From NCBI RefSeq assembly GCF_009766065.1, contig NZ_LMUE01000002.1, positions 1,037,247-1,101,246 on the forward strand: a stretch of 64,000 nucleotides of DNA, in the 5' to 3' direction. The stretch is from Dyella sp. S184 (lineage in GTDB: Bacteria; Pseudomonadota; Gammaproteobacteria; Xanthomonadales; Rhodanobacteraceae). Positions 9,253 through 12,545 of this stretch are shown here, piece after piece; within the stretch, counting starts at the first letter, position 1, and each line of letters starts with the position of its first letter. Below the pieces are notes generated by a model, which did not search any database, was not told the origin of the DNA, and saw nothing but the letters and a program-made list of their open reading frames with translations. A program made the translations under genes and the position numbers.

Positions 9253-11133
9253 ATGAAGATCCAATCAGTTCGCATCAAGAACTTTCGCACTTTGAAAGAT
9301 GTGATGATCCCCTTCGATTCCGTCACGACATTCATCGGCCCGAACGGCGCCGGCAAGTCCACAGTGCTTCGTGCGCTCGATTGGTACTTCAATGGCAAGT
9401 CGGGATCTCTGACCGAGAAGGACTGCTCCTTCGGGGCGACTGACGAACACATCGAGGTTCAGGTGACATTCGCTGACCTCACCGCCAAGGACCGCGATGC
9501 ACTTGGCAAGTATGCGCCGGACGGAGTTGCCACGTTCACGGCATGGAAGCAGCGATCACCTGATGGCTCCGATGTGCTTTCCGCCAATGCGAAGGGTTTC
9601 CCGGATTTCAACCCAATCAAGGCGGCAGGCGGTGCGGCCGCGAAGAAGGATCTGTACGCCGATCTCCGGCGTAGGCGCCCAGAACTGAGTCTTCCGGAGG
9701 CCAAAACCGGCATTGCCGTTGAGCAGGCGATAACGACATGGGAGGCATCTCAAACTGGTCAGCTCATCGACGCCCCCGAAGCGCTGCAGACCAATTTCTT
9801 CGGCTTCAACAGTGGCGGCAAGATGAGTGGACTTTTTGACTTCGTCCTAGTCACTGCTGACCTTCGGGCGAGCGACGAGTCAAGCGACGGCAAGTCGAGC
9901 ATCATCGGTCGAATCCTGGAGCGTTCAGTTGACCGTGCTGCTGCTGACGAGGCTATTGCGGAGATCGTCGAGGAGTCACGTGTGAGGCAGCAGAGGGTGT
10001 ATGAAGAGAAGTTCAAAGAGCAGCTGGAGGTGATGACGGCACAGCTCAACGGTATCGTTGCGTCCTACTCTCCCGGTCGTGCTGTCACCGTTTCCCCTGC
10101 AGAGGTGGAGCTCAGGGCTCCTCGAACCACATTTGAGTTGGCAGTTCTCGATGGCGCAACGGAGACTGCTGTGGAGCGCCAGGGGCACGGCTTTCAGCGC
10201 ACGCTTCTGATCTCGGCGCTCCAACTCCTCGCGCAGTCAGGCGCAGCATCAGCAGAGGGTGTCATCTGTCTGGCAATCGAGGAGCCGGAACTTTATCAAC
10301 ACCCGATTCAAGCCCAAGCGTTCGCTAAGATGCTCCGATCGCTTGCGGAGGACGCCGCTAAGCGCATCCAAGTGACCTATGCGACTCATAGCCCTTACTT
10401 CCTTGAGGCGCGGCATTTCGATCAGGTCAGGCGGCTGACGAGATCGTCCGACGAGACTCCTGTAGTCACTGTCCACTTCGCTACAGTCGACGATGTGAAG
10501 ACGAAGCTCAATGAAACGGTTGATGCCGATCAGGTCGCTCGTCAACTCGATGGCATCGTAACCAATCGCCTCTCGGTTGCGTTGTTCGCAGCGCGCGTTC
10601 TGCTTGTCGAGGGTGATACAGAGGCAGCCGTGTTCTACGGAATCGGCGATCGGGATGCTGTGGGGCGACTTGAATCCCAAGGGCTGTCGATTGTTTCAGT
10701 TGGGGGCAAGGGTGGAATTCCACTTGCTCATGCCATCCTTACCTGCATCGGGATTCCGACCTACGTACTCTTCGACGGGGACAGCGGTTTCGAGGTTCGG
10801 GCTAACGCTGTGGGCAAGAATCAGGCTGTTATAGATGGCGAGCGCACGAAATTTTCGACAGAGAACCGTCGTCTGTTGAAGTATTTGGGTGGCACCGAAG
10901 TTGATTTTCCACCAGAGCAAGTCGGCGATCGTTTGGCAACTCTAAGCGATCACCTTGAGGCCTACTTAGAGTCCAATTGGACGGAGTGGGTCGCGTCGTG
11001 TGCGGCAATTGAGGCCGCTGCCGGAATCCAGCTCGGAAAGAATCAGTATGCCTACCGGACCTCCACGCTTGAGGCGCAAGGAACGGTTCCAGAGATGCTC
11101 AAGCAGATTCTGACGAACGCGGGAGTAGTTTAG
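9253..11133 (+). CDS. OLD-like AAA ATPase with C-terminal TOPRIM nuclease domain
   Basis: A 626-residue protein. The N-terminal IKNFRTLKDV and Walker A GPNGAGKST (29-37) open an SMC/RecF-type ATPase. GHGFQRT (311-317) is the signature-like motif, ICLAIEEPELYQHP (338-351) is Walker B, and THSPYF (378-383) is the H-loop. The C-terminal TOPRIM domain shows VLLVEGDTE (E453) and FDGDSG (D508, D510). This is the plan of OLD-family nucleases, many of which act in phage defence. The start is the ATG after GGGAGGTGG; the frame also has a GTG 12 bases upstream. It is 2 bp from the DUF2130 gene and has no GajB-like helicase partner. Confidence 0.93.
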   Translation: MKIQSVRIKNFRTLKDVMIPFDSVTTFIGPNGAGKSTVLRALDWYFNGKSGSLTEKDCSFGATDEHIEVQVTFADLTAKDRDALGKYAPDGVATFTAWKQRSPDGSDVLSANAKGFPDFNPIKAAGGAAAKKDLYADLRRRRPELSLPEAKTGIAVEQAITTWEASQTGQLIDAPEALQTNFFGFNSGGKMSGLFDFVLVTADLRASDESSDGKSSIIGRILERSVDRAAADEAIAEIVEESRVRQQRVYEEKFKEQLEVMTAQLNGIVASYSPGRAVTVSPAEVELRAPRTTFELAVLDGATETAVERQGHGFQRTLLISALQLLAQSGAASAEGVICLAIEEPELYQHPIQAQAFAKMLRSLAEDAAKRIQVTYATHSPYFLEARHFDQVRRLTRSSDETPVVTVHFATVDDVKTKLNETVDADQVARQLDGIVTNRLSVALFAARVLLVEGDTEAAVFYGIGDRDAVGRLESQGLSIVSVGGKGGIPLAHAILTCIGIPTYVLFDGDSGFEVRANAVGKNQAVIDGERTKFSTENRRLLKYLGGTEVDFPPEQVGDRLATLSDHLEAYLESNWTEWVASCAAIEAAAGIQLGKNQYAYRTSTLEAQGTVPEMLKQILTNAGVV

Positions 11134-11135
11134 CC

Positions 11136-12545
11136 ATGCACGAGATTACCTGCCCGCACTGCGGGAAAGCATTCAAGATTGACGAGGCTGGGTACGCGAA
11201 CATCCTGAAACAGGTTCGCGACAGCGAATTTGAGAAGCAGTTGCACGATCGGCTTGAGCTGGCTGAGCAAGACAAGCGGAACGCCGTCGAGCTTGCCGAG
11301 ACCAAGGTCGCCAGTGAGTTGCAGAAGGCCGCCGCGGCCAAGGACGCAGAGATCCAGGAACTCAAGGCCAGACTCGATGCCGGAGATGTCGCGCGGAAGC
11401 TTGCCGTGACCGAAGCCCTAAGCGGCGTGGAAAAAGAGCGTGACGTGCTCGCGAACGAACTTGAGCAAGCGAAGCGTGATAAGCAAGCCGCTTCCAAGCT
11501 AGCCGAAGCGATGCTCGATAACGAGCTGCAAAAGGCTGCGGCTACGAAGGACGCTGAGATCCAAGGCTTGAACTCCAAACTCGACGCCATCGAGGTTGCT
11601 CAGAAGCTCGCGATCACCGAGGCAGTGACTGTGGTCGAGAAGGAACGCGACGAACTTAAGGGTGGCCTTGAGAGAGCGAAGCTTGAGAAGCAGCTCGCCG
11701 AGAAGTCGCTCAAGGACAAATACGAGACGCAGATCAAGGATCGCGAGGACGAGATCGGGCGCCTTCGGGACATGAAGGCTCGCCTGTCGACCAAGATGGT
11801 TGGCGAAACCCTAGAGCAGCACTGCGATACCGAATTCAACCGCATTCGAGCGACGGCGTTTCCGAGGGCATATTTCGAGAAGGACAACGACGCGCGGACT
11901 GGCAGCAAGGGCGACTACATCTTTCGCGACTCCGATGAGGTTGGCACTGAGATCGTCTCGATCATGTTTGAAATGAAGAACGAGAGCGATCACACCGCGA
12001 CGAAGAACAAGAACGAGGACTTCCTAAAGGAGCTCGACAAGGATCGCACCGAGAAGGGGTGCGAGTATGCGGTTCTGGTCTCCCTGCTCGAGCCCGACAG
12101 TGAGCTCTACAACACCGGGATCGTCGACGTGTTCCACCGCTACCCGAAGATGTACATCGTGCGACCGCAATTCTTTCTTCCAATCATCACGCTGCTGCGG
12201 AATGCGGCGATGAACTCGCTCAAGTACAAGTCAGAGCTTGCGCTCGTTAAGGCGCAGAACATAGACGTCACGAACTTCGAGAACGAGCTAGAGACATTTA
12301 AGAACGGTTTCGCCCGAAATTACGAGTTAGCGTCCAGTAAGTTCAAGACAGCCATCGATGAGATAGACAAGACCATTACCCATCTCCAGAAGACCAAGGA
12401 TGCTTTGCTCGGCTCAGAGAACAACTTTCGTCTTGCGAACGACAAGGCGCAGGACGTGACCATCAAGAAGTTGAGTCGCGGCAACCCGACGATGGCAGCC
12501 AAGTTCGCCGACCTAAAGAATAATGGCTCTTCCGATGCTGGATGA
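11136..12545 (+). CDS. DUF2130 protein: zinc-ribbon start, coiled coil and PD-(D/E)xK-like nuclease domain
   Basis: A 469-residue protein. It begins ITCPHCGKAF (C6, C9), half a zinc ribbon, then a long coiled coil (about 25-215), then the DUF2130 domain with GDYIF (D260) and FEMKNE (E279, K281), which fits a restriction-endonuclease-like active site. A short helical tail follows. The coiled coil holds an internal duplication with a 69-residue offset (E61 onward against E130 onward). It starts 2 bp after the OLD-like gene stops, so the two are almost certainly one operon. DUF2130 has no settled function. Confidence 0.9.
   Translation: MHEITCPHCGKAFKIDEAGYANILKQVRDSEFEKQLHDRLELAEQDKRNAVELAETKVASELQKAAAAKDAEIQELKARLDAGDVARKLAVTEALSGVEKERDVLANELEQAKRDKQAASKLAEAMLDNELQKAAATKDAEIQGLNSKLDAIEVAQKLAITEAVTVVEKERDELKGGLERAKLEKQLAEKSLKDKYETQIKDREDEIGRLRDMKARLSTKMVGETLEQHCDTEFNRIRATAFPRAYFEKDNDARTGSKGDYIFRDSDEVGTEIVSIMFEMKNESDHTATKNKNEDFLKELDKDRTEKGCEYAVLVSLLEPDSELYNTGIVDVFHRYPKMYIVRPQFFLPIITLLRNAAMNSLKYKSELALVKAQNIDVTNFENELETFKNGFARNYELASSKFKTAIDEIDKTITHLQKTKDALLGSENNFRLANDKAQDVTIKKLSRGNPTMAAKFADLKNNGSSDAG

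Follow-up and report, generated by a model that had tools for sequence, protein, structure and literature searches.

A recurrent gene pair of an OLD-family nuclease and a DUF2130 protein in Dyella sp. S184, a candidate mobile anti-phage module

The DNA analysed here, a 64,000 nt stretch of Dyella sp. S184 (contig NZ_LMUE01000002.1, positions 1,037,247 to 1,101,246) that we call the window, carries two adjacent genes encoding an OLD-family ABC ATPase-TOPRIM protein (hereafter OLD) and a DUF2130 protein. The original prediction for this locus proposed that the two genes, 2 bp apart, form an undescribed two-gene defence system. Both open reading frames (ORFs) and the 2 nt gap between them are present as described (Table 1).

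The OLD protein matched the profiles AAA_15 (5.1e-40) and OLD-like_TOPRIM (7.7e-18), 'Old' as its best PADLOC model (4.8e-55), phrog_4747 of the PHROGs collection (8.5e-124, spanning residues 1-617) and the class 1 OLD structure 6p74 in the PDB (5.2e-26). The chain has an N-terminal ABC ATPase and a C-terminal TOPRIM with conserved catalytic residues, the arrangement that characterizes class 1 OLD proteins, and its motifs are GPNGAGKS (residues 29-36), IEEPE (342-346), THSP (378-381), LVEGDTEAA (451-459) and FDGDSG (507-512). The SMC-like ATPase and TOPRIM motifs had been called intact, and the alignment agrees: K35, S36, E343, E344, H379, E453, D508 and D510 are identical wherever a row has a letter across 56 aligned rows, whether these come from loci linked to DUF2130 (26 rows), loci that retain a scar of DUF2130 (10) or bare loci (20, one of them gapped at 35-36). 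Residue 457 is E or D, and E549 and D551 are also conserved. Judging from their spacing, E453, E457, D508 and D510 would match E377, D381, D431 and D433 of the Thermus scotoductus (Ts) OLD, and E549/D551 would match its S478/E480 (PMC7049728).

The DUF2130 protein matched PF09903 over residues 190-448 (2.3e-92), and had no match at E <= 0.001 in PADLOC 2023, NCBIfam or PHROGs. The long coiled coil expected in this protein appears in the predicted model as one continuous helix, and is built on a 69-amino-acid repeat, with 34/50 residues identical at offset 69 and 13/50 at the next best offset. The lengths of DUF2130 relatives (469, 538 and 607 amino acids) step by about this unit. The D-ExK-like site noted earlier was also recovered, with D260, E279 and K281 unchanged in every row of three alignments (25, 26 and 38 rows). 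These residues lie in a predicted core ordered helix, strand, strand, strand, helix, strand, as in PD-(D/E)XK enzymes, so that the predicted models contain the alpha-beta-beta-beta-alpha-beta core with D-(x)n-ExK by which that superfamily is recognized, and the best structural matches of the model are mostly restriction, repair and defence nucleases. We therefore predict that DUF2130 is a PD-(D/E)XK nuclease carried on a coiled-coil arm, in line with the suggestion that it could be the partner nuclease of OLD. The supposed zinc knuckle at the start of the protein holds in part: C6 and C9 are present, and invariant in 25 sequences, but they form a single CPHC pair, half of a typical site. The RmuC family has a similar layout of coiled coil and nuclease-like domain, but two comparisons with RmuC PF02646 profiles lent no support to a relationship (probability 1.1-1.2%, at effective alignment depths of only ~1.9 and 3.3). 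In one DUF2130 from a viral contig (L161:7776-9098) the CPxC start is missing and a different N-terminus takes its place. The C-terminal helix at residues 392-446 comes in two versions (NYDLAS... and NWRLASDGF...), and the presence of both in OLD-linked and orphan DUF2130 copies suggests exchange within the gene.

Table 1. Positions in the window of the OLD-DUF2130 gene pair, its features and the neighbouring retron
Feature	Position	Strand	Details
OLD-family ABC ATPase-TOPRIM gene	9253..11133	+	626 aa from ATG; profile, PHROG and PDB matches
Alternative start of OLD, in-frame GTG	9241	+	would give 630 aa
Walker A motif GPNGAGKS	9337..9360	+	OLD residues 29-36; K35, S36 constant
TOPRIM domain	10582..10782	+	OLD residues 444-510 (PF20469); E453, E457, D508, D510
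Gap from OLD stop to DUF2130 start, 2 nt (TAG CC ATG)	11134..11135	+	ORF coordinates
DUF2130 gene	11136..12545	+	469 aa; PF09903 2.3e-92
CPHC motif	11151..11162	+	DUF2130 residues 6-9; half zinc site
Predicted continuous coiled-coil helix with 69-aa repeat	11223..11786	+	DUF2130 residues 30-217; predicted model and self-comparison
Predicted PD-(D/E)XK nuclease core	11811..12164	+	DUF2130 residues 226-343; D260, E279, K281
Retron, St85 type (effector and reverse transcriptase)	7114-9064		profile matches

A single scan of a species-genome collection with OLD, which recovered close relatives only, gave 56 loci, representing 55 genes because L045 and L066, on separate contigs of a single Duganella genome, hold the halves of one gene. 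The 52 loci with >=300 bp of sequence downstream of OLD formed the informative set (the other four end sooner), and a first tally, made before closer inspection, placed 26 as linked to DUF2130 and 26 as not. DUF2130 starts <=5 nt from OLD in 24/52 loci; among these, it looks broken inside in L014, L023 and L064, and runs off the contig in L013, L016, L052 and L060. It lies 383 bp downstream, behind a broken OLD, in L048, and is reduced to its first 43 codons in L026; OLD itself is frameshifted in L059, L063 and L064. In seven of the 26 'not' loci (L011, L015, L029, L035, L037, L044 and L056) the OLD stop is closely followed by the opening codons of DUF2130, still in register, which with L026 brings the scars to eight. 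The scar test was run on 34 loci, and each of the eight scars outscored all 343-364 control stretches from its own locus, most narrowly in L037 (35 versus 31) and L044 (28 versus 24). A candidate scar in L034 that narrowly exceeded its control (26 versus 22) was left out of the count, and the in-register alignment in L063 scored 21, below the control maximum of 25. Two plasmid loci outside the 52, L092 (whose OLD protein is the same as that of L011) and L093, also passed. DUF2130 or its remains are thus found in 33/52 OLD loci, and neither in 19/52.

The spacing was measured at 29 loci, namely the window, the 24 linked loci, L026, two viral contigs and one plasmid; OLD comes first, and in 25 of these loci precisely 2 nt separate the genes. 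Recurrence, fixed spacing and scars together show that the pairing is not one of chance neighbours, and rule out accidental adjacency, one of the two conditions under which the prediction was to be abandoned.

The pair is also found on mobile elements. Plasmid records with DUF2130 number 60, and 71 carry something OLD-like, six of them at >=74% identity; DUF2130 adjoins OLD in two of these six (Enterobacter and Citrobacter, by coordinates), two carry a scar (L092 and L093) and one has no trace of DUF2130 (L091). No DUF2130 match was found among the 50,697 INPHARED phage records, and 15 IMG/VR loci encode the protein. Besides the two plasmids, the pair occurs in prophage-like contigs, and the contig of L150/L166 contains terminase, portal and head protease genes. 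Phage KS5 encodes OLD alone (gp28), among tail and baseplate genes.

In the genome of Dyella sp. S184 itself there is one DUF2130; in the other 35 genomes of the genus that were searched, DUF2130 occurs in one (G031), and no close full-length OLD was found. The DNA shared with relatives stops at 12,916-13,018, beside a fabV-like gene, and window positions 5,500-12,900 had no match in the loci of 14 relatives within the flank compared. Pieces of the left-hand DNA occur at 1.2 and 6.2 kb from the fabV-like gene in G007 and G014, where they are partly rearranged and accompanied by neither the retron nor the pair. The block of retron, OLD and DUF2130 is thus accessory.

DUF2130 is uncommon, present in at least 10/369 genomes of the class and at least 18/398 of the phylum, own genome included (lower bounds, as at most four candidates were scored per genome). 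OLD lies upstream of it in only one of 26 DUF2130 genomes other than our own, some of whose loci are fragments with little flank; that single genome has the same DUF2130 core as L032, and is likely the same genome. Loss has occurred on the other side as well: the last codons of OLD persist just upstream of DUF2130 in two of 33 orphan loci tested, L129, from the same genus as the window (score 68 versus a control maximum of 34), and the viral locus L151 (41 versus 37). Two other loci were uninformative in this test (in L017b the control held an intact OLD, and the start of L154 was guessed), and G406 and G455 were left out. Either gene may therefore be lost while the other persists. One locus, L017, has two DUF2130 genes (9884-11284 and 15270-16673) on different tree branches, one OLD-linked and one not.

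OLD does not decay once DUF2130 is gone. It is unbroken in the eight scarred loci, with its catalytic residues retained, and of 16 pairs compared, whether or not DUF2130 was present, all but one gave an omega of 0.048-0.130; the near-identical L013/L014, at a dS of 0.004, gave 0.66. The pairs measured take in six of the eight scarred loci, and low omega extends to pairs in which neither locus has an intact DUF2130 (L091/L027, L026/L091, L029/L030, L056/L042, L031/L034, L011/L015 and L037/L011). OLD is intact and under purifying selection without DUF2130.

On an OLD tree of 65 rows, made by a quick method, DUF2130 presence required 17 changes, of which starred branches force at least 9, and scars required nine, at least 7 of them forced; the DUF2130 label was mildly clustered (15/500 shuffles as low). 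The deepest OLD proteins on the tree, which are actinobacterial, are without DUF2130 or labelled unknown. Best segments of <=450 residues and the copies L001, L067, L097, L135, L150, L153, L164 and L165 were omitted from this tree, and the label unknown was given to L043, L047, L051 and L057, two of which, L051 and L057 (306 and 361 bp of downstream sequence), are nevertheless among the 'not' loci of the set of 52. The simplest reading of the scars is repeated loss from an old pair; the change counts themselves do not separate gain from loss. On a DUF2130 tree, also of 65 rows, OLD-linked and orphan copies were clustered (12 changes, at least 4 forced, 0/500 shuffles as low); repeat loci, matches of <180 columns and genomes G161, G202, G336, G406, G455 and G548 were omitted. 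Covariation of OLD and DUF2130 distances was weak across 21 pairs (r 0.37, 94 of 5000) and weaker without L059 (r 0.14, 802 of 5000), which speaks for partner exchange. These observations divide the original prediction. The pair does recur at fixed spacing, on plasmids and in prophage-like contigs, but a two-gene system in the strict sense is not supported, given the persistence of OLD at the scarred loci, the rarity of OLD upstream of DUF2130, the loss of OLD at orphan loci and the weak covariation. OLD-DUF2130 is not an obligate two-gene system.

Restriction-modification (R-M) genes lie beside the pair or OLD at a part of the loci. In L004, L018, L025 and L028 the pair lies between genes for an SNF2-type helicase and a DUF4391 protein and those for a type III methyltransferase and restriction enzyme (models were run on L018); this frame is also seen at L063, with a broken OLD, and at L138, with DUF2130 and no OLD. 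Type I R-M genes lie upstream of OLD in five actinobacterial loci: L039, the one on which models were run, has OLD after methyltransferase, specificity and restriction enzyme genes, and clustering placed methyltransferase and restriction enzyme members upstream of OLD in L041, L044, L048 and L057. No R-M cluster member was found near many of the OLD loci. In L039 (Acidithrix, 9884-14967), downstream of the type I R-M operon, the genes directly after OLD encode an nSTAND3 protein and a large protein that weakly matches SMC_N, possibly parts of a larger system.

Among 24 orphan DUF2130 loci that we looked at, nine have, no more than two genes away, a defence gene identified by PADLOC or by annotation: DUF4297 and DUF87 (L003), SIR2 and HerA (L145 and L146), an AriA-like protein (L133, PDC-M21A/B), PDC-S06 (L132 and L137), type III R-M (L138 and L157) and PDC-S52 (L129). 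The ATPase neighbour in L132 is an AAA_13 protein. No defence-type gene was found within two genes at L005-L009, where, as at L003, the annotation was read, or among the chosen neighbour proteins scanned at L130, L134, L136, L139-L142, L144, L148 and L163 (one protein each at L134, L148 and L163, the first two against Pfam only). R-M genes lie slightly further out in L007 and L008.

Compared with known systems, the pair is closest to class 1 OLD (P2 Old and the Ts OLD of structure 6p74), with which it shares a single-chain ABC ATPase and TOPRIM, conserved metal-site residues, a downstream position without a helicase gene (here taken by DUF2130) and carriage by phages. Class 1 OLD proteins are described as single genes, away from other candidate defence genes (PMC10568477), whereas here a DUF2130 partner accompanies OLD at about half of the loci, and several loci are part of R-M operons. 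As DUF2130 or its remains accompany so many copies, OLD is class 1-like by its chain, yet the locus is not a class 1 locus. Gabija (GajA-GajB, class 2 OLD) likewise has an OLD nuclease directly followed by a second gene, but its partner is a UvrD-like helicase; the absence of this helicase had been noted before, and the gene in its place matches DUF2130, a predicted nuclease, so that Gabija was rejected. PARIS (AriA-AriB) and OLD-ABC ATPases associated with PD-(D/E)XK, HNH or PIN nucleases also set an OLD-family ATPase beside a separate nuclease gene, which is said to take the place of the usual TOPRIM (PMC12839542), but OLD of the window has an intact TOPRIM besides the predicted partner nuclease. 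PARIS was rejected because its ATPase and TOPRIM are separate genes (AriA and AriB) and both lie in one chain here; single-gene PARIS fusions do occur at times (PMC10568477). Retron-associated OLD (class 3, Retron-Eco8) resembles the window in having a retron upstream of OLD, but the window retron has its own St85-type effector. Class 3 was rejected, as its OLD is conserved beside a reverse transcriptase (RT) and a non-coding RNA; the window RT clustered with no protein of other OLD loci, only with copies of the window (blastp, E 1e-8, half coverage), and as a neighbour of OLD the retron is specific to this window.

No description of the OLD-DUF2130 pair was found in the full text of open-licence literature (supplementary tables lay outside the search, and a listing elsewhere is possible). 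Name searches of that literature for DUF2130, PF09903 and COG4487 gave no defence paper by title, and the papers found by the name DUF2130 had it in neither title nor abstract. Together with the absence of a PADLOC 2023 model for DUF2130, this agrees with the claim that the pair is undescribed. The pair recurs, is mobile and, within the searches made, is undescribed. The reading that fits it best is a class 1-type OLD nuclease accompanied by a predicted PD-(D/E)XK partner that can be exchanged.

We infer a defence function, nuclease activity and interaction of the two proteins. Our preferred reading, to which we give a probability of roughly 45%, is that the pair is a mobile anti-phage module in which OLD acts as the core effector, with DUF2130 as a second nuclease that can be exchanged. 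OLD and DUF2130 would be translated together; ATP-gated OLD would respond to infection, or to damage suffered by the DNA-protection machinery of the host, by cutting nucleic acid on its own, while DUF2130 would add a second cut, made in foreign DNA, and the 69-amino-acid units of its coiled-coil arm would set the distance from the CPHC end to the nuclease end. As OLD functions in its absence, DUF2130 would not be needed for protection but would broaden or reinforce it, and it likely reads a feature of DNA and not of OLD, because its sequence is nearly constant beside unrelated partners.

The two genes might instead be independent single-gene defences that share a cassette and do not interact. 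Each has been lost singly, leaving scars, both are found alone at many loci and their co-divergence is weak; even so, the exact 2 nt gap, with OLD always first where it was measured, points to selection for joint translation, and we consider full independence rather unlikely. A different division of labour, in which DUF2130 (or, elsewhere, the flanking R-M enzymes) is the front-line nuclease and OLD a latent killer fired when a phage inhibitor disables it, would fit the position of OLD, at a part of the loci, within type I and type III R-M operons, and has precedents: P2 Old responds to inhibition of RecBC by Gam, then cleaves a tRNA (PMC13261556), and AriA detects the anti-restriction protein Ocr (PMC12839542). 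The AriA-like and AAA_13 neighbours of orphan DUF2130 are also consistent with it. Against it, many OLD loci have no R-M cluster member nearby and OLD persists without DUF2130, and we regard such guarding as unlikely. That DUF2130 holds OLD in check, in the manner of an antitoxin or silencer, seems highly improbable: close linkage at fixed spacing would permit co-expression, and the partner is exchangeable, but OLD has stayed unbroken, at an omega of ~0.1, after loss of DUF2130 in several lineages.

A 2023 review left open whether class 1 OLD proteins defend alone, and how many OLD classes there are (PMC10568477). It is conceivable, though we are doubtful, that the ATPase-TOPRIM nuclease with DUF2130 forms a further OLD class, and that DUF2130 is a universal plug-in defence nuclease beside OLD, AriA-like, AAA_13, SIR2/DUF4297-HerA and type III R-M modules that acts as a bait, its inhibition being sensed by the ATPase next to it. 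Nature supplies an experiment on what the partner contributes: one and the same OLD is found beside an intact partner (as in Trinickia soli, L012), beside a scar of it (as in Paraburkholderia caffeinitolerans, L011) and with neither, so that the contribution can be tested in matched pairs. DUF2130, previously a family of unknown function, gains a predicted activity and, at a part of its loci, a defence setting.

The immediate neighbours of the pair had been given as a retron and a WYL protein, and the retron was confirmed. Its effector has a St85-family match (9e-50, 169.9 bits against a cut-off of 100), and its RT matches PADLOC RT_II-A (3.3e-70) and NCBIfam retron_St85_RT (6.8e-69, 232.3 bits, just below the cut-off of 235). 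The effector ORF from GTG 7114 crosses an inverted repeat at ~7150-7200 that may belong to the retron non-coding RNA; as the NCBIfam match begins only at residue 71, the true start probably lies further in. Short GGGGTCAGGTT / AACCTGACCCC sequences flank the retron at ~6945-6965 and 9098-9116. The supposed WYL protein did not hold up: it is a 108-amino-acid ORF whose WYL match falls below the cut-off (4.5e-4, 20.6 bits against 21.8), and which also matches an AbiEii model (2.1e-7). Further upstream, ORFs at 3716-4389 and 5014-5708 resemble, by eye, toxin-antitoxin pairs (ParE/RelE-like, and PIN with AbrB-like).

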